Program-made: the position numbers and the translations under genes
The notes under the pieces: model-generated
Database searches by the model: none
Told to the model about the DNA's origin: nothing
The model's input: the letters and a program-made list of their open reading frames with translations, nothing else
Source of the DNA: Halococcus salsus
GTDB taxonomy: Archaea > Halobacteriota > Halobacteria > Halobacteriales > Halococcaceae
Length of the DNA stretch: 64,000 bases
Direction of reading: 5' to 3'
Assembly (NCBI RefSeq): GCF_009900715.1
Contig: NZ_JAAAJC010000002.1
Coordinates: 62,001-126,000 of the forward strand
Shown: positions 5,703 to 13,852 of the stretch, piece after piece
Numbering within the stretch: position 1 is the first letter of the stretch
Layout of the letters: every line of letters begins with the position of its first letter

Positions 5703-7079
5703 ATGGACGTCCCGGGTATCGTCCGCGAGCGCCTCGGGGACGAGCGGCGGATGACAAGCGTGAACATCGGTGGCGAGGACCGGGTCTACGTCACGCCGCC
5801 GCGGACGCTCGTCTACCACGCCTCCGGGCTCTTCAGTCGCGAGTCGATCGACGAGTACTCCCACGACGCACGACGGTTCGACGTCTCGGCCAACCGCCGC
5901 GAGGCCACGTTCGCGTTCGAGTACGACGACGGGGTCGAGGCGTTCTCGATCCCGCGCGAGCGCATCGAGACCGTACTCCCGCCGGTGCTCGCCGGCGTGC
6001 TCCGGACCACCGGCCACATCGACGACGAGGAGTCGGTCGAGGAGAGCTATCGCTTCGGCGAGCGGACGGTCGTCGTCACCGAGGCGCAGGTGCTGACCTC
6101 GGTCGGCGAGGCGGTCTGGGACCACGACCACGACAGCTATGCCTACGAGGACGTCACCGACCTCGCGTTCGACGACGGCGACCTCGTCGTCGTGATCGAC
6201 GGCCGGTCGCGCCGGATCGAGCTCGACGACGACAGCGGGCGCGAGGCCTACGGGACGGTCGAGGCCGCGCTTCTCGCCTATCACGGCGTCGGGAGCGTCG
6301 ACAAGATCGGTCGTCGACCGCCCGAACGCTCGTCGGTCGACGAGTCACAGGCCACGGGCGGCGTTTCGCCCGCCGGGAGCCGAGACTTCGATTCGTCGGC
6401 CGATGCCGCGCCAACCGACACCGCCCCGCCGACCGAACCGGCCGAATCAGGTCCGGAGCCGCTCTCCGGACGGGCCGACGAACCGGCCGAATCCGCCGGG
6501 CCGACCGAGCCGACCGAACCAACCGATACAACCGATAGGCCGTCCGAGGACGTGGATCGACCGGCGGAAGCGGCCGACCGAGACGGTGAACCGGACGACC
6601 GGAGCGAGCCGACCGCGTCGGCGAACGACACCGACTCGGGTATCGTCTCCTCCTCACCACCGAGCTCGCCCGCACCGGGCGGCCCGACCACCGACCCGCT
6701 GATCCCGGACGCACCCGACACCGGCACGTCACGGCCCGAGGCGGGTGACGACCCGGCGAGCGCCGAGGAGACCCCGCCGGCCGCCGACCCCACAGCGGAG
6801 ACCGAGTCCACAGTGGGTAGCGAGCCCACGGCGGGTACCGACCGGGCGACGGACATCGGCTCGACGACGGATGTCGACCCCGAAACGAGCGCCGACCCCG
6901 CAGTCGATACCGGACGAGGCGGGAGCGACAGCACCGGCGATGCGCCCGACATCGGGGCCGAGCTCGACGCGCTGCGCGAACGCGTCGACCGCCAGAGTCA
7001 GCTCCTCGAACGGAACCGGGAGCTCCTCGAACGCCTCGTCGAGACCCGGGAATCGAAGCGCGTCAGCGACGACCGGTGA
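5703..7079 (+). CDS. Haloarchaeal DUF7115-like protein with disordered linker and coiled coil
   Basis: A 458-residue protein in three parts. Residues 1-200 are a globular domain rich in short beta strands (for example RVYVTPPRTLVYHASGL and FGERTVVVTEAQVL). Residues 205-415 are a long Pro/Thr/Ser/Asp/Glu-rich linker with PTEP-type repeats, surely disordered. The last 40 residues form a charged amphipathic helix (LDALRERVDRQSQLLERN) that should be a coiled coil. I associate the N-terminal domain with the haloarchaeal DUF7115 family from memory, so the name is tentative. ATG 5703 lies about 25 bases after a TCTTATGCC box, fitting a leaderless start. Its 3' end overlaps the opposing gene by 17 bases. 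Confidence 0.75.
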   Translation: MDVPGIVRERLGDERRMTSVNIGGEDRVYVTPPRTLVYHASGLFSRESIDEYSHDARRFDVSANRREATFAFEYDDGVEAFSIPRERIETVLPPVLAGVLRTTGHIDDEESVEESYRFGERTVVVTEAQVLTSVGEAVWDHDHDSYAYEDVTDLAFDDGDLVVVIDGRSRRIELDDDSGREAYGTVEAALLAYHGVGSVDKIGRRPPERSSVDESQATGGVSPAGSRDFDSSADAAPTDTAPPTEPAESGPEPLSGRADEPAESAGPTEPTEPTDTTDRPSEDVDRPAEAADRDGEPDDRSEPTASANDTDSGIVSSSPPSSPAPGGPTTDPLIPDAPDTGTSRPEAGDDPASAEETPPAADPTAETESTVGSEPTAGTDRATDIGSTTDVDPETSADPAVDTGRGGSDSTGDAPDIGAELDALRERVDRQSQLLERNRELLERLVETRESKRVSDDR

Positions 7080-7419
7080 CTTTCTCGATACACGACGACC
7101 CGAAGGGACCGAGCTCGCCGTTGTCGAACCGGATGAAGTGACCCGTCGAGAGCGACGCGCCGCATCGCCGGCAGGTGAACTCGCCCTCCCGAACCACGAC
7201 GTCGCTCCCGAAGCTGACGTACTCGCCCGAGCGAACCCGGAGGATCCCGTCCTCGCGGTCGATGACGCCACGCTTTTCGGCCTCGTCGAGGATCGTGCGG
7301 GTGGTTCGGGGCTCGCTGGTCACGGTTTCGAGCCGGTCGAGTGCCGTCGCGAGGTCGAGCTGTCCGTCCTCGAGGTTCGCGAGGAGCTCGACACCGAGTT
7401 CGACCGTCTCGTCGCTCAC
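7063..7419 (-). CDS. DUF5830-like MarR/HTH-type protein with zinc ribbon
   Basis: A 118-residue protein. The N-terminal 60 residues look like a winged helix (DLATALDRLETVTSEP, TTRTILDEAEKRGVI). The C-terminal half has CRRCG and, after a spacer, SSCIEKV, a probable partial zinc site with the motif GHFIRFDNGELGPFGSSC. I associate it with the haloarchaeal DUF5830 family; the function is unknown and a DNA-binding role is inferred. It converges with the coiled-coil protein gene and overlaps it tail to tail. Confidence 0.75.
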   Translation of the reverse strand: MSDETVELGVELLANLEDGQLDLATALDRLETVTSEPRTTRTILDEAEKRGVIDREDGILRVRSGEYVSFGSDVVVREGEFTCRRCGASLSTGHFIRFDNGELGPFGSSCIEKVTGRR

Positions 7420-7483: not shown

Positions 7484-8236
7484 TCACTCGACGGATTCGG
7501 TGGGCTCCGGGAGGTCGCCCGGCAGGAACCCCGCGTCGAGTCCCGAGACCCGACAGAGGTCCCAGAGCGTCGCGAGGTTGCTCGTCACCGTCGGCACCTC
7601 GGTGAGCTCGTCGACCGCCGCGAGCGTCGGGTAGTTCGTACAGGAGACGAACAGCGCGTCGACCGCCCCAGGCGATCCCTCAACGGCATCGAGCAGCGCA
7701 GTCGCCTGTTCGAGCGCGTCCCGCGGCGTGAGACGCCCGATGTCGGTGTTGCGCTCGATCCCGCGTCCGTCGAGCGCCACCACGTCGTAGCCGGCGTCGG
7801 TGAGGTACTCACGCTCGCGGTCGTTCAGTTCGGCGACGTAGGGCGTCGCCACGGCGATCCGGGTCGCATCCAGCGCGTCGAGCAGCCGCTGGACCGACAG
7901 CGCCGTCGCCACGGCGGGCGCGTCGGTGACCTCGGCGAGGTCGGCTTCGAGTTCCGCGTCGAAGCCGTGGCCGTGGAGGAGGCTCCCGGTGGTGCAGGCG
8001 TAGGCGACCGCGTCGACCTCGGCGTGGGCGAGCCGCTCCGCAGCCGCGACGGCGTCGGCCGCCATCGCGTCGAGCGCCTCGACCGTCACGTCCACGAGCC
8101 CCATCCGCGCGGCGTGAATCGACGTCGCGGCCGGCGTCCACACGGCGAACTCGGGTTCCACGGTTGTATTCGAGGAGGGGACGACGACCCCGAGTCGTAA
8201 TCGGTCGCCGTCGGCGGTCGGGTCGGGAGGGGTCAC
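7484..8236 (-). CDS. Asp/Glu racemase superfamily enzyme (maleate isomerase / arylmalonate decarboxylase / hydantoin racemase type)
   Basis: A 250-residue cytoplasmic enzyme with the two-cysteine active site of the Asp/Glu racemase fold. The N-terminal motif VVPSSNTTVEPEF (residues 18-30) is typical of maleate cis-trans isomerase and arylmalonate decarboxylase. The first catalytic cysteine sits in AYACTTGS (near residue 80) and the second in FVSCTNYPT (near 197). It is the last gene of a four-gene unit: its GTG start overlaps the TGA of hyuB in GTGA. In that setting a role in racemising or isomerising the amide substrate or product is plausible, but the substrate cannot be read from sequence. 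Confidence 0.85.
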   Translation of the reverse strand: MTPPDPTADGDRLRLGVVVPSSNTTVEPEFAVWTPAATSIHAARMGLVDVTVEALDAMAADAVAAAERLAHAEVDAVAYACTTGSLLHGHGFDAELEADLAEVTDAPAVATALSVQRLLDALDATRIAVATPYVAELNDREREYLTDAGYDVVALDGRGIERNTDIGRLTPRDALEQATALLDAVEGSPGAVDALFVSCTNYPTLAAVDELTEVPTVTSNLATLWDLCRVSGLDAGFLPGDLPEPTESVE

Positions 8237-9909
8237 TCGCTCACCTTCCCGTCGGCGCGGTCGCGCTCGCGGGCCGTGGGGTCGCGGTCCACGGGGTCGC
8301 CGTGACCGCCGCCGCCGGGCGTGAGCAGGGTGACGGTCGTGCCGGCGTCGACGTCGACGGAGGTCTTCGCCGCGACGGTCTCCCCGTCGATGAGATTGCG
8401 ACCGAGCGCGCCGGACTCGCCGCCGGCGAGGCCAGCGGGCGGAACTCGGCGGCGTTCGGTCAACAGCGAGACCGTCGCGTCCGTCTCAACCGTGAGGGAA
8501 CGCTCGAGGCCGAGACCACCCCGGAATCGCCCGTCCCCGCCGCTGTCCGGACGGAAGCCGTAGCGCTCCACGCGGAGCGGGTAGGCGGCTTCGAGCGCTT
8601 CGACGGGGGTGTTGAGCGTGTTCGTCATCCCGACCTGGACGCCGTCCATCCCGTCCTTGCCGGGTCGTGCGCCGAAGCCACCGGCGATCGTCTCGTAGTA
8701 GGTGAACGAGCCGCTCCGGCTCCCGACGATGAGGTTGTTCATCGTGCCCTGGCTCGCGGCGGGCACCCGGTCGGGCACCGCCTCGGCGAACGCCGCGAGC
8801 ACGACGTCGGTAACCCGCTGGCTGGTCTCGACGTTGCCGCCGACGACCGCCGCCGGGAGCTTCGGGTCGAGCAGCGACCCCTCGGGGATCTCGACCGTCA
8901 CCGGGTCGTAACAGCCCTGGTTCGGCGGGATCTCGGGGTCGGTGACACAGCGCACGACGAAGTAGGCGGCGCTCTTCGCGACCGCGACCGGCGCGTTGAG
9001 GTTTCCGGGGACCTGCTCGGCGGTCCCCGCGAAGTCGACGGTCAAACCGTCCCCGTCGACGGTGACGGTCGCCTCGATGGGGATCGAGACGTCCGCCGGG
9101 TCGATACCCGATCGATGTTCGAGAACGCCGTCGCCCTCCAGCACGTCGCTCGCGGTGTAAGTACCATCGGGCAGCGACTCGATCTCGGTCTCGATCCGGG
9201 CGCGCGAGTAGTCGATGACCGCGTCGAAGGCGTCGAGCACGAGGTCGCCGTGGTCGTCGAGGAGGTCGCCGAGCCGTTCCTCCGCCCGGTCGTTGGCCGC
9301 GATCTGGGCTCTGAGGTCCGCACGGCGCTCGTCCGGCGTACGGACGTTGGCGAGTAAGAGTGACATCACGTCCTCGTTCACCGCCCCGCGCTCGCGACCC
9401 GGTTCGGAGTCGTTCGAGCCCGCCGCGCCGACGACGAGCCGAACCGGCGGCAGACGGAGCCCTTCCTGGTAGATCTCGCGCGCGCCAGCGGGCATGCTGC
9501 CCGGCGTCATCCCGCCGACGTCGGCGTGGTGGGCGCGCGAGACGGCGTAGCCGAGGACCTCGCCGTTCGGCGCGAGCGGCGAGACGAGCGTGACGTCGGG
9601 TAGGTGGGTGCCGCCGTCGAAGGGGTCGTTGAGGACGAAGACGTCGCCGGGCTGGGGGTCGCGGTCGCGGACCGCGTCGACGGCCTCGGGCATCGCGCCG
9701 AGGTGCACGGGGATGTGTTCGGCCTGGGCGACCATCCGGCCGTCGGCGTCGAAGAGCGCGGTCGAGCAGTCCTGGCGCTCCTTGATGTTGGGGGAATAGG
9801 ACCCCGTGATCAATACCTGCCCCATCTCCTCGGCGACGCTCTCGAACTGGTTGCGGAGGATCTCGAGGGTGACCGCGTCGATGTCGGTCTCAGGGGAATC
9901 GGAACTCAT
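8233..9909 (-). CDS. hyuB: Hydantoinase B / 5-oxoprolinase beta subunit
   Basis: A 558-residue protein of the HyuB family, which with HyuA forms an ATP-dependent cyclic amide hydrolase (5-oxoproline, N-methylhydantoin, or a carboxylase for acetone-type substrates). The start [20 protein letters not shown] is typical. The family signature [11 protein letters not shown] is near residue 65, the metal-binding region [20 protein letters not shown] near 90-110, and [14 protein letters not shown] near residue 410. The C-terminus ends in [12 protein letters not shown], also conserved. The ATG overlaps the hyuA stop in ATGA, so the subunits are translationally coupled. A much longer open frame continues upstream but is the shadow of hyuA and the carrier gene. 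Confidence 0.92.
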
Positions 9910-11915
9910 TTCGAACCCTCCGTGAGCACCGCGGTGCCGTCGGGGTCGACGGTCGCCTCCCAGTTCGGCGGCACGACGACCGTGCTCTCGTCCTGTTCGA
10001 GCACGGCGGGCCCCGCCACCGTCTCGCCCGGCGGCAGGCGTTCGCGGTCGTAGATCCGCGTCCGCGTGGCACCGTCGGCGAAGTGAGCCTCGCGTTCGTC
10101 GACCAGCGCATCGCCGGGCGCGTCGTAGGCGACGTCCGGGTCGGCGCGTTCGACGGCCGCCTCGACCCGGAGGTTGACCAGATCCACGGCCTCGTCCATC
10201 CGGTAGCCGTAGGTCGTCTCGTGGCTCTCGTGAAACCGCCGGGCGACCGCCTCGGGGTCGAACGGCCGGTCGGCGGCGACGGTGAGTTCGAAGCTCTGGC
10301 CGGCGTACCGGAGGTCGGCACGACGGGTGAGGACGGCCGATTCGGGGTCGCTGCAGTCCTCGCGCACGGTGGTTTCGAGTTCCTCGTAGGCCGCGTCCAC
10401 GTCGGAAGCGTCGACCGTCGACAGCGACTCGCGGTGGGTGCGGACGGCGTCGTGTTTCTCGTCGGCGGCGAGCAGGCCGAACGCCGAGAGCACGCCGCAG
10501 GCCCGCGGGACGACGACCGTCGAGATGTCGAGGCGGTCGGCGAGCGCCGCGGCGTGCATCGGGCCCGCGCCGCCGAAGGTGACGAGACCGAAGTTTCGGG
10601 GGTCGTGACCGCGTTCGAGCGTGACCGCGCGGATGGCCCGGGTCATGGTCGCGTTGGCGACGCGGTAGATCCCGCGGGCGGCGTCGAGCGGGCCCTCCAA
10701 GTCCGCGTCGTCGGCGAGGTCGGCGAGCGCGTCGCGGGCGGCCCCGACGTCGATCGAGAGCTCGCCGCCGAGGCTCGTGCTCGACCCGATGAAGCCGAGG
10801 ACGACGTTCGCGTCCGTCACGGTGGGCTCGGTTCCGCCCTGCCCGTAGCAGACGGGCCCGGGGTCCGCACCGGCCGACTCGGGGCCGACCCGGAGCGCGC
10901 CGCCGGCGTCGACCCAGCCGACGCTCCCGCCGCCCGCGCCGACGGTGGTGACGTCGACCATCGGGGTGTTGATGGGATGGCCGCCGATGACCGCGTCGGT
11001 CGTGCGCTCGACCTCGCCGTCGCGGACGAGGCTCACGTCGCTCGACGTGCCGCCCATGTCGAAGGTGACGAGGCCGGCGTGGTCGCGGTCGGCCGCACTG
11101 CCGACGCTGGCGCGTGCACCGACGACCCCGGCGGCGGGGCCGGAGAGACACGTTCTGACCGCCTGCTCCCTGACCGTCGCCGCGTCGGTGATGCCGCCGT
11201 TGGCCTGCATCACGGTCGGTTCCGGCACGCCCGCGCTCGCCGCGCGATCGACCAGCCGGCCGATGTAGGCGTCGATGGCGGGCGTGACGTAGGCGTCGGC
11301 GACCGTCGTCGACGTCCGTTCGTACTCGCGGAACTCCGCGAGCACCTCGTGGGAGGTCGAAACGGGGAGATCGAGTTCGGTTTCGAGCACGTCGGCGACG
11401 GCGGCCTCGTTGTCGGGGTGGGCGTAGGCGTGGAGGAGACAGACCGCGACCGCCTCCGCGTCGGTCCCGTCGATCCGACGGGCGACCTCGCGGACGGCGT
11501 CCGGGTCGACCGCCCGTTCGATCCCGTTCGTCGTCGCGCGTTCGTCGACCGTGAACCGTCGGCGGCGGGGCACCAGCGGGGCGGGCTTCTCGGCGTCGAG
11601 GTCGTAGAGCGAGGGTCGGTTCTGCCGACCGATCTCGAGCACGTCGCGAAAGCCCTCGGTCGTCACGAGCGCCGTCCGCGCGCCGTTCCCTTCGAGCAGC
11701 GCGTTGACCGAGACCGTCATCGCGTGGGCGAAGTCGTCGATTTCGCCGGGGTCGACGGCCGCCCGTTCGCAGGCCTTCTCGATACCGTCCATCACGCCGA
11801 CGCTTTGATCCCCGGTGCTCGGGACCTTCGCGGTGACGAGGTCCGACCCTCGAAGAAGGACGACGTCGGTGAACGTGCCGCCGACGTCGACGCCGACGGT
11901 GGTCTTCCCACGCAC
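9906..11915 (-). CDS. hyuA: Hydantoinase A / 5-oxoprolinase alpha subunit
   Basis: A 669-residue ATP-binding subunit of the HyuAB complex. It starts at a GTG and shows the actin-like phosphate-binding motif VGVDVGGTFTDVVLL at residues 7-21. A second nucleotide motif, LVTFDMGGTSSDVSLV, lies near 280, and VTTVGAGGGSVGW near 315-327. FGLVTFGGAGPMHA near 440 is the third family block. The start codon touches the stop of the NRAMP-like gene (TGA then GTG), and the stop overlaps hyuB. Coupling with a transporter and a racemase-like enzyme argues for a scavenging pathway rather than a glutathione cycle, since haloarchaea mostly use gamma-glutamylcysteine. Confidence 0.92.
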   Translation of the reverse strand: MRGKTTVGVDVGGTFTDVVLLRGSDLVTAKVPSTGDQSVGVMDGIEKACERAAVDPGEIDDFAHAMTVSVNALLEGNGARTALVTTEGFRDVLEIGRQNRPSLYDLDAEKPAPLVPRRRRFTVDERATTNGIERAVDPDAVREVARRIDGTDAEAVAVCLLHAYAHPDNEAAVADVLETELDLPVSTSHEVLAEFREYERTSTTVADAYVTPAIDAYIGRLVDRAASAGVPEPTVMQANGGITDAATVREQAVRTCLSGPAAGVVGARASVGSAADRDHAGLVTFDMGGTSSDVSLVRDGEVERTTDAVIGGHPINTPMVDVTTVGAGGGSVGWVDAGGALRVGPESAGADPGPVCYGQGGTEPTVTDANVVLGFIGSSTSLGGELSIDVGAARDALADLADDADLEGPLDAARGIYRVANATMTRAIRAVTLERGHDPRNFGLVTFGGAGPMHAAALADRLDISTVVVPRACGVLSAFGLLAADEKHDAVRTHRESLSTVDASDVDAAYEELETTVREDCSDPESAVLTRRADLRYAGQSFELTVAADRPFDPEAVARRFHESHETTYGYRMDEAVDLVNLRVEAAVERADPDVAYDAPGDALVDEREAHFADGATRTRIYDRERLPPGETVAGPAVLEQDESTVVVPPNWEATVDPDGTAVLTEGSK

Positions 11916-13124
11916 TCAGACCACCCCCACGATCGAGAGCAGGCTGCGGACCCCGAGCCAGACGACGACGAGCGTCACGACGGCCCCGAGGGCGTTCTGC
12001 ACGGTCGAATTGACGTAGTCGCCCAACGTGTCGCGGTCGTTCATCACCAGGATGAGGAAGAGCGCGATGATAGGCAGGAGGATACCGTTCGCGACCTGGG
12101 CGAAGAGGATGGCCTCGACGGGGCTGTAATCCAGCGCCGAGAAGACGACGCCGACGGCGAGGATCGCGACCCAGACCGCCCGGAACCGCGTGGACTTGAG
12201 GTCGCCCTCCCAGCCGAGCGCGCCGGCGGTGGCGTACGCGCCGGCCAGCGGGGCGGTCGTCGCGCTGGTGAACCCGGCGGCGAAGAGGCCGATACTGAAG
12301 AACACCTGCGCGTAGGTGCCCGCGACGGGTTCGAGCTGTTCGGCCATCCGGCCGACGTCGGAGATCTCGGTCCCGACGGGGAACACCGCCGCGGCGGTCA
12401 CGAGGATCGAGAGCGTGATCAGCCCGCCGACGACGATCGAGAGGACCGTATCGGTGCGGCATTCCGAGAGGTCCTCCGGGCCGTTCCAGCGCTCCTGGAC
12501 GCTGCTGGCGTGGAGGAAGAGGTTGTAGCTCACGACGGTCGTCCCGATGAGGCCGGTGATCAGGAAGGCCGAACCCGGCGGCACCGACGGCACGAAGCCC
12601 GCCGCGAGCGCACCGAGGTCCGGCCCGATGAGGATCGCGTCGATGAGGAAGGAGACGCCCATTATCGCCACGAGCCCGACGAGCGCGCGCTCGATGAGTT
12701 CGTAGCTCCCGGTCCAGAGCAACGCGGCGGCGACCAGACCCATGAGCGGACCCCACACCGACGCACTCACGCCGGTCACGGTTTCGAGCCCCGCCGCGCC
12801 GCCGAGGATGTTGCCCGTCTCGTAGGCCGCGGTGCCGATGCCGATGGCGCTGACGACGAGCGCGACGCTCGCGTAGCGCAGCGCCGGCGAGTCGAAGCGG
12901 TTGCGGAGCGCCTCGCCGAGCCCCTCGCGCGAGACCAGCCCCAGCCGGGCGCTCATCTCCTGGAGCACGATGGTGGCGATCACGGAGAAGACGATGGTCC
13001 AGATCAGCGCGTAGCCGTAGGCCGCGCCCGTCACGCTCGCGGTCGTGACAGTGCCAGGACCGATGAAGGCCGCCGCGACCATCGCGCCCGGTCCGACCGA
13101 GCGGATCCGCTCGACCAACGTCAT
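11916..13124 (-). CDS. NRAMP-fold transporter lacking the metal-site residues
   Basis: A 402-residue carrier with about eleven transmembrane helices of the NRAMP family. In metal-transporting members TM1 carries DPGN and TM6 carries MPH. Here TM1 reads FIGPGTVTTA, so Asp and Asn are replaced by Gly and Thr (residues 22-25). TM6 reads GTTVVSYNLFLHASSVQ, so MPH is VSY. It is the first gene of the tightly packed unit with hyuA, hyuB and the racemase-like gene. NRAMP relatives also sit beside oxoprolinase genes in bacteria (ycsG near pxpA in Bacillus, from memory). I infer uptake of an organic amide or amino-acid derivative rather than Mn2+ or Fe2+. The ATG at 13124 is preferred over in-frame upstream codons. 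Confidence 0.85.
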   Translation of the reverse strand: MTLVERIRSVGPGAMVAAAFIGPGTVTTASVTGAAYGYALIWTIVFSVIATIVLQEMSARLGLVSREGLGEALRNRFDSPALRYASVALVVSAIGIGTAAYETGNILGGAAGLETVTGVSASVWGPLMGLVAAALLWTGSYELIERALVGLVAIMGVSFLIDAILIGPDLGALAAGFVPSVPPGSAFLITGLIGTTVVSYNLFLHASSVQERWNGPEDLSECRTDTVLSIVVGGLITLSILVTAAAVFPVGTEISDVGRMAEQLEPVAGTYAQVFFSIGLFAAGFTSATTAPLAGAYATAGALGWEGDLKSTRFRAVWVAILAVGVVFSALDYSPVEAILFAQVANGILLPIIALFLILVMNDRDTLGDYVNSTVQNALGAVVTLVVVWLGVRSLLSIVGVV

Positions 13125-13170
13125 CGTGCACGCCTCTCGTGTGTCATGCTCACACGAGACTCGCTTGAGG

Positions 13171-13179
13171 GGATAAGGG
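13171..13179 (-). promoter_or_regulatory. TATA-like promoter of the NRAMP-hyuAB-racemase operon
   Basis: The minus strand reads CCCTTATCC about 47-55 bases upstream of the start codon at 13124, which would give a leader of about 20 bases. It is the only AT-rich box in the 170-base gap that suits this strand. Confidence 0.35.
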
Positions 13180-13294
13180 TTGTTATGAGGGATGTGCATC
13201 GAAGACGTGCGTTCCACGATCGGATGTGAAGCAGGGTGCGCGAATCGTCCAGTTCGTAACGAAATCCCGGGGAACTGCCCGGGAAAACACACCG

Positions 13295-13852
13295 TCAGGA
13301 CGACTCGACCGGTCGTTCCGTGATGAGGACCTTCGAGACGCTCTCCTCGACGTCGAGTTCGACGGGGAGGTCGCGGACGCTTCGCACGATGAAGCGCATC
13401 ATGAACCACCGGAGCGACGCGGACGGGAAGACGACGTGGTAGGTGCGCCCCTCGGCGGCGCGAACCGAGACGAACCCACAGAACGAGAGCCAGTCCAGGA
13501 GCTCGCCGACGCTCTCGAACCGCTCGGCGTACTCGCGGGCGTGGTAGTCGGCGACGGTGTCGGCGGCCTCGACGAAGGCCGGGTCCGGTTCCCCCGACCC
13601 GTCCTCGACGTACTCCAGAAAGCAGTGCAGGAAGTCCACGTCGAGCAGGACGTGTTCGCCGCTCGCGAGCATCCGGTGGTAGGCCGCGAGGTTCGGCCCG
13701 GCGTCGGTCGTCGCGGCGTCGACGTTCGCGGCGTAGAAGTCGAGCGCTCGGCGGACCACCTCGCTCCGGCCCGCCCCGGTGTGGTCGAGGAGGGTGTCGA
13801 GCGCCGCCGCGGCGTCGTCGTCGAGCGAGACGGTCACTCGGTCGGTCGGCAT
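13295..13852 (-). CDS. Ribbon-helix-helix (CopG-type) protein with haloarchaeal C-terminal domain
   Basis: A 185-residue protein. The first 45 residues have the ribbon-helix-helix pattern: strand RVTVSLDD, helix AAAALDTLLDHTG, then GRSEVVRRALDFYAAN. The remaining 140 residues form an alpha/beta domain (ASGEHVLLDVDFLHCFLEYV and TYHVVFPSASLRWFMMRFIV) that I do not recognise outside halophiles. A DNA-binding regulator sensing a ligand through the C-terminal domain is the likely role. It stands alone between divergent genes, 170 bases from the NRAMP operon, so that operon is one possible target (inference). Confidence 0.8.
   Translation of the reverse strand: MPTDRVTVSLDDDAAAALDTLLDHTGAGRSEVVRRALDFYAANVDAATTDAGPNLAAYHRMLASGEHVLLDVDFLHCFLEYVEDGSGEPDPAFVEAADTVADYHAREYAERFESVGELLDWLSFCGFVSVRAAEGRTYHVVFPSASLRWFMMRFIVRSVRDLPVELDVEESVSKVLITERPVESS

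Follow-up and report, generated by a model that had tools for sequence, protein, structure and literature searches.

In the haloarchaeon Halococcus salsus we analysed a 64,000-nucleotide stretch of contig NZ_JAAAJC010000002.1 (positions 62,001 to 126,000 of the forward strand; hereafter the window), and within it an operon that couples an NRAMP-related carrier to a two-subunit, HyuAB-type ATP-dependent lactamase and that is probably a 5-oxoproline (pyroglutamate) scavenging system. A preliminary description of this DNA had proposed four coupled genes, and the coordinates, the abutting or overlapping gene ends and the Pfam matches bore this out. All four open reading frames (ORFs) lie on the minus strand at the positions already described: the carrier, a predicted 5-oxoproline importer (P0001, 11916..13124, 402 aa, ATG start; PF01566); HyuA, the ATP-dependent lactam-activating subunit (P0002, 9906..11915, 669 aa, GTG start; PF05378/PF01968/PF19278); HyuB, the metal-dependent ring-opening subunit (P0003, 8233..9909, 558 aa; PF02538); and a protein of the arylmalonate decarboxylase (AMDase)/maleate isomerase/Asp-Glu racemase superfamily (P0004, 7484..8236, 250 aa; PF17645). 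The HyuA start immediately abuts the end of the carrier gene, and the HyuA/HyuB and HyuB/racemase-like junctions each overlap by 4 nt (ATGA and GTGA, respectively). The four genes are real and translationally coupled, but the preliminary description missed a gene upstream of them, which is concealed within a long ORF and encodes in its own frame a 185-aa ribbon-helix-helix (RHH, CopG-type) regulator (13295..13852, minus strand; PF01402 RHH_1, 35.3 bits against a cut-off of 20.5). This regulator belongs to the operon unit as its first gene, making five genes, and a regulatory intergenic region of 170 bp (13125..13294) separates it from the start of the carrier gene.

The survey for NRAMP-like genes next to hyuAB in archaea that the preliminary description had suggested was run on 69 haloarchaeal loci retrieved by homology to the carrier and on a set of 40 haloarchaeal loci whose neighbourhoods were clustered. 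The NRAMP-HyuA-HyuB block recurred in 37 of the 40 genomes fetched, and HyuA was directly downstream of the carrier on the same strand at 67 of the 69 loci; of the two exceptions, one lies at a contig end and the other has HyuAB inverted. Because the block recurs so regularly in both sets, the arrangement is far beyond chance. A same-strand gene for about 183 aa preceded the carrier at 31 of the 40 clustered loci, a same-strand RHH gene was found upstream at 67 of the 69 loci fetched by carrier homology, and the upstream homologues of Haloferax mediterranei and Haloarcula hispanica are annotated as RHH/CopG; in these two species, both available from culture collections, the operon is plasmid-borne, and that of H. 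mediterranei lacks the Amdase-like gene. The Amdase-like gene occurred somewhere in the locus in 46 of 69 cases (absent from about a third) and is not essential to the operon, because haloarchaeal loci without it exist. Gene order was non-standard at three loci (L063, L059 and L060 in our numbering). Across 292 haloarchaeal genomes, a close carrier (at least 55% identity; paralogues were clearly set off, reaching 36% at most) was present in 84, and HyuB homologues were present in 276. A small DUF5830 gene of the same strand (7063-7419) lies directly downstream of the operon; of the 40 loci, only those of H. salsus and its nearest relative were found to have it. Genes for F420-0 gamma-glutamyl ligase and a luciferase-like (F420-type) oxidoreductase recur downstream of the operon in one family (loci L048, L049, L051, L053, L055, L057 and L079) and are probably mere neighbours.

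The carrier matched the Pfam Nramp profile PF01566 over positions 1-356 of 357 (336 bits, cut-off 29.8), and it fell far below the cut-off of NCBIfam MntH (188 against 430 bits). In transmembrane segment 1 (TM1) it has GPGT in place of DPGN, in TM6 it has VSYN in place of the canonical MPH, and the TM3 Glu is replaced by Asn105. Every aligned metal ligand is replaced in the whole carrier clade, which carries the signature motifs GPGT[VI]TT and GTT[VI]V[PGST]YN, and is kept in the MntH-like paralogue of the same genome. Eight NRAMP-superfamily genes are encoded by this genome; the TM1 motifs of five paralogues (L001 and L003-L006) are DPGN, GPGA, GSGS and GAGD, and only one of the five, L001, is a canonical DPGN/MPH NRAMP. 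In DraNramp, the D56A/N mutants no longer transport Mn and Cd, and transport is severely impaired in N59A (PMC6398981). Its sequence sets the carrier apart from the canonical metal importers, and the ligand loss argues against metal transport, short of excluding it, because some non-canonical Nramp-related proteins move metals, namely EleNRMT (Mg2+, without the canonical motif; PMC12873925) and YcsG/MntG (reported as a Mn2+ importer; PMC10448178). A preprint describes all Nramp-related groups as entirely uncharacterised except those containing MntG/YcsG and EleNRMT (PMC12873925). With the Nramp-related proteins (non-canonical, paraphyletic groups, among them 'G-motif 3' with MntG/YcsG and the NRMT-like EleNRMT) the carrier shares the NRAMP fold and the replacement of DPGN/MPH, whereas the clade defined here is linked by gene context to 5-oxoproline.

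The resemblance to ycsG near pxpA in Bacillus, to which the preliminary description had pointed, holds in part. An NRAMP-fold carrier for an organic lactam is supported, but YcsG itself is not an orthologue: the carrier is 23% identical to the NRAMP protein of the ycsF-ycsG-ycsI arrangement in Bacillus badius, our proxy for YcsG, and 25% identical to a protein of Lactiplantibacillus plantarum, whereas YcsG, PxpT and PxpG share 46-50% identity among themselves (PMC13274462). Both proteins are from pxp loci, and after comparison with them we rejected the idea that the carrier is YcsG/PxpT; as judged by this comparison, it falls outside the YcsG/PxpT/PxpG sequence group. The carrier clade appears to be a second pxp-linked NRAMP lineage, distinct from YcsG. 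Plasmid NRAMP matches at 26-29% identity were rejected as YcsG relatives, since no pxp genes are annotated nearby; some of them adjoin metal regulators, and one record is unannotated.

In bacteria, orthologues of the carrier (45-63% identity) are encoded in pxpABC (5-oxoprolinase) loci, in most cases next to a gene of the D-glutamate cyclase family. The bacterial relatives found by a genome scan were 52-60% identical, and PxpA, PxpB and PxpC were encoded beside the carrier in eight bacteria, including Maledivibacter, Dethiosulfatibacter, Streptomyces and Bacteroidota, five of which also had DUF1445. This domain is Pfam PF07286 (D-Glu_cyclase), and the reaction after which D-glutamate cyclase is named, a name taken from the family annotation, leads to 5-oxo-D-proline. 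At one locus tested with NCBIfam, PxpA and PxpB scored above their cut-offs, PxpC passed the 5-oxoprolinase/urea-amidolyase domain cut-off and not that of the PxpC equivalog, and the DUF1445 protein was a 'putative hydro-lyase'. Among 348 genomes surveyed from the Dethiosulfatibacter phylum, all nine first-copy close relatives fetched (Bacillota-type loci, 45-63%) lay in pxpABC loci with DUF1445, and no pxpABC was found beside one second copy (40%) or ten more distant NRAMPs (26-40% overall). In Actinomycetota, the partner of the carrier at eight loci was HyuA or HyuAB rather than PxpABC, and seven of these loci had the cyclase gene; these were seven fetched loci, six with the cyclase nearby, and a Rubrobacteraceae contig with the order cyclase-carrier-HyuA. 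At four other Actinomycetota loci the carrier was near PxpA, and none of the loci examined had both PxpABC and HyuAB at one carrier. The same carrier clade is linked to pxpABC in bacteria and to HyuAB in haloarchaea. That one carrier can have either of two unrelated ATP-dependent lactamases beside it is our strongest evidence that haloarchaeal HyuAB acts as a 5-oxoprolinase.

HyuA contains the Pfam Hydantoinase_A domain with the N- and C-terminal domains and is single-copy in the genome, and HyuB matched Hydantoinase_B at 669 bits. In alignments with caprolactamase (6yra), the HyuA motifs DVGGTFTD, DMGGTSSD and GADPGP aligned with CapA, and the HyuB tetrad Asp47-His102-Asp105-His127 aligned with Asp41/His99/Asp102/His124 of CapB, which are essential; roles of the ATP motifs in CapA, and divalent-metal binding by HyuB-type subunits, have also been described (PMC8453981). 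The catalytic motifs are intact, as expected from the sequence of a HyuAB/OPLAH-type ATP-dependent lactamase. In common with CapAB of Pseudomonas jessenii and the OPLAH superfamily, the pair has the two-subunit build, the ATP-site motifs in A and the Asp-His-Asp-His tetrad in B; it differs from CapAB in scoring under the CapA/CapB equivalog cut-off (482 and 250 bits against 1000), in lacking a vicinal Cys-Cys at the place in HyuB that aligns with the CapB pair, and in its operon partners. The nearest solved relative of HyuA and HyuB was a fused N-methylhydantoinase.

A tree of the carriers placed those of haloarchaea in one clade (100/100) that falls within the pxp-linked bacterial proteins and has pxp-linked clostridial carriers as its sister group (98/89). 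A single transfer into haloarchaea is the simplest reading of this tree. In the HyuB tree, the haloarchaeal sequences also formed one clade (99/99), which adjoined the carrier-linked actinobacterial HyuB (86/79); the latter were themselves a clade (100/100), with the divergent L255 apart. Both groups stood apart from other bacterial HyuB, including CapB and N-methylhydantoinase. Haloarchaeal HyuB with and without a linked carrier were intermixed; therefore, HyuAB was probably there first, with the carrier being gained and lost. Nearly all haloarchaea have HyuAB, which is probably older than the operon in this group, and the carrier was probably gained from Clostridia-like bacteria bearing the pxp operon and then joined the resident HyuAB.

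The last gene of the operon had been described as an Asp/Glu racemase relative, but the protein is closer to arylmalonate decarboxylase and maleate isomerase, and its gene is missing from about a third of the loci, as noted above. It matched Pfam Amdase (PF17645) at 113 bits and fell below the cut-offs of the Asp/Glu/hydantoin racemase family PF01177 (26.7 against 31 bits) and the arylmalonate decarboxylase equivalog (110 against 225 bits), with a weak match to the ectoine-utilisation protein EutA (85 bits, cut-off 318). Its closest solved structures were maleate isomerases and AMDase. With the superfamily it shares the fold family, the PSSNT..E motif and, as in maleate isomerase and the racemases, two cysteines: Cys81 and Cys199 are kept in 73 of 74 sequences. 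Unlike AMDase, which has a single catalytic Cys and whose equivalog cut-off is far above its score, the protein has both cysteines of the two-cysteine racemase/isomerase mechanism, the second in a racemase-like SCTNYP context; maleate isomerases likewise have two cysteines. The gene is single-copy in the genome, and PF07286, the D-glutamate cyclase family, was found in none of 194 haloarchaeal genomes. By analogy, we would guess that P0004 is a candidate 5-oxoproline or glutamate racemase handling D-isomers.

Of 69 non-redundant relatives, 48 had at least one TTCAYACG site upstream of the carrier gene; the corresponding figure for random 140-bp stretches was 1.0%. Among adjacent pairs of the site in these relatives the commonest spacing was exactly 10 bp (12 cases), and half-sites with 10- or 20-bp spacing were found, for most haloarchaea, in the homologous regions (L041-L152, L247 and L249). 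A 10-bp phasing is typical of RHH operators, and the TTCAYACG repeat is likely to be an RHH operator. An RHH domain and repeated half-sites near the target, which characterise an RHH regulator with phased operators, are both present here, although the window has only degenerate copies of the repeat (TTCACA at -106 and CGTGTGA at -32). The window also contains a perfect palindrome, TCTCGTGTG-N7-CACACGAGA, with 9-bp arms around 13135-13159, 11-35 bp before the carrier start; it was rejected as a general operator, since it is not conserved in relatives, whereas the TTCAYACG repeat is. In Haloterrigena sp. H1 (L148 and L149) the carrier gene is split, its two parts lying about 1.4 kb from each other and the RHH gene farther upstream, which looks like an insertion, and a gap of about 3 kb between the RHH and carrier genes also occurs in L111, L115 and L143.

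As described above, the gene context and its conservation support a coupled operon for uptake and ATP-dependent opening of a cyclic amide, as the preliminary description had suggested. That description left the substrate as 5-oxoproline or a hydantoin. We favour the former because the bacterial carrier orthologues lie in pxpABC loci and, in Actinomycetota, PxpABC is swapped for HyuAB beside the same carrier and the cyclase gene; hydantoin is the weaker candidate, since we noticed no N-carbamoylase gene in the recurrent neighbourhood of the haloarchaeal loci, where not every neighbour was identified. We are thus fairly confident that the operon scavenges 5-oxoproline. The substrate, transport direction, regulator action and racemase role that we infer are as follows. 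The NRAMP-fold, non-metal carrier would bring 5-oxoproline into the cell, HyuA would activate the lactam with ATP, and HyuB with its bound divalent metal would open the activated ring to give L-glutamate, a hub of carbon and nitrogen metabolism. The RHH protein would repress or tune the carrier-enzyme operon through the 10-bp-phased operators upstream of the carrier gene and, where present, the two-cysteine AMDase-superfamily protein may adjust stereochemistry, converting D- to L-5-oxoproline or interconverting D/L-glutamate. The operon has a glutamate dehydrogenase gene as its neighbour in Haloarcula and in a single genome from a different family (G207); we count this as supportive of 5-oxoproline and no more, because only two lineages are in effect involved. 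Glutamate dehydrogenase genes were seen at L249 (5920-7173 and 727-2022) and at L052.

Several observations weigh against this assignment. The H. salsus genome has a PxpA/B/C-like cluster elsewhere (C2:297062-300096), although its PxpB-like protein scored only 75 bits against the PxpB cut-off of 145 and did better, at 98 bits, with urea carboxylase. The sequence of HyuAB alone cannot tell a 5-oxoprolinase from other lactamases, and its function is read from gene context. The characterised PxpT, YcsG and PxpG are, as judged by the Bacillus badius proxy, of a different NRAMP lineage, so that their function is not transferable by orthology, and YcsG/MntG is itself the reported manganese importer. 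The sister relation of haloarchaeal and actinobacterial HyuB has modest support, and four carrier orthologues (L059, L151, L160 and L248) have neither PxpABC nor HyuAB nearby. At L151, a metagenome-assembled genome of SAR324, the carrier-clade gene is followed by one for a DUF2848 protein (9430-10146), and PxpABC and HyuAB were absent from the contig stretch examined. As for the haloarchaeal PxpABC-like clusters (L171, the own-genome region C2:291000-310900, and L172-L178), a reading of their ORFs shows that they often adjoin biotin carboxylase and, in some, molybdenum-hydroxylase genes, no NRAMP gene was found in those looked at, and they may act on another substrate, a lactam or a urea-like compound. 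We tested, as possible support, whether PxpA and the carrier exclude each other in haloarchaea and rejected this, since the lists, on inspection, show the carrier in about 20 of the 36 genomes with PxpA.

Among the other explanations, a metal-supply operon fares best, although we consider it unlikely. In such an operon the NRAMP-related protein would import a divalent metal (Mn2+, Mg2+ or another) for HyuB, and HyuAB would cleave 5-oxoproline or another lactam arising inside the cell. The divalent-metal binding of HyuB-type subunits, the pxp-linked Mn2+ importer YcsG/MntG and the Mg2+ transport by EleNRMT all agree with it; the whole carrier clade, however, is without the TM1 Asp/Asn, TM6 Met/His and TM3 Glu, the genome has its canonical NRAMP elsewhere, and deletion of PxpT, an NRAMP-family protein required for growth of Corynebacterium glutamicum on 5-oxoproline, blocks that growth (PMC13274462). 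Slightly less likely still is a different cyclic amide (hydantoin, N-methylhydantoin, or a succinimide-like or ectoine-derived compound), on which the racemase-like protein would act as well. The N-methylhydantoinase relationship of HyuAB and the weak EutA match would fit, and known hydantoin clusters include a racemase, but the lack of a noticed N-carbamoylase (within the limit given above) and the ties of the bacterial carrier orthologues to pxpABC and D-glutamate cyclase, both of 5-oxoproline chemistry, point away from it. That the carrier is a chance or regulatory neighbour with an unrelated purpose, beside a house-keeping HyuAB 5-oxoprolinase, would suit the excess of HyuB-bearing over carrier-bearing haloarchaea and the few stand-alone orthologues (L059 and L248), but is very improbable given abutting or overlapping genes kept across many genera, a common regulator upstream, whose phased sites are conserved, and the same carrier-HyuAB pairing in Actinomycetota.

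The scavenging operon proposed here has as its nearest known counterparts PxpT-PxpABC of Corynebacterium glutamicum and pxp/ycsG of Bacillus, with which it shares an NRAMP-superfamily carrier and an ATP-dependent 5-oxoprolinase encoded in the same operon, and a local regulator; the Bacillus badius NRAMP likewise has GPG for DPG in TM1. It differs from them in its carrier, which has about 23% identity to the Bacillus-type protein, in its enzyme, HyuAB being unrelated to PxpABC, and in having an RHH rather than a GntR regulator and an AMDase-like protein in place of the D-glutamate cyclase family protein. A carrier with an ATP-dependent 5-oxoprolinase is a known kind of system; what is unusual here is the testable proposal for an uncharacterised NRAMP-related clade. 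A search of the available literature returned nothing relevant on a hyuA/NRAMP pairing or a haloarchaeal oxoprolinase. A broader proposal, which we put forward tentatively and with more doubt than belief, is that an NRAMP-fold clade switched from metal ions to 5-oxoproline and serves as a module interchangeable between two unrelated 5-oxoprolinases, PxpABC in many bacteria and HyuAB in haloarchaea and some Actinomycetota, and that the two-cysteine enzyme of haloarchaea, in which no D-glutamate cyclase family member was found, is a 5-oxoproline racemase; we know of no enzyme with this activity. These findings would give a concrete, testable substrate to a carrier clade annotated in databases as 'Nramp family divalent metal transporter', and a likely function to haloarchaeal HyuAB, annotated only as hydantoinase/oxoprolinase. 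They bear on the dispute whether the NRAMP-fold proteins of 5-oxoproline operons move 5-oxoproline (PxpT) or manganese (MntG), and they present two unrelated 5-oxoprolinases that would have been swapped beside the same carrier.

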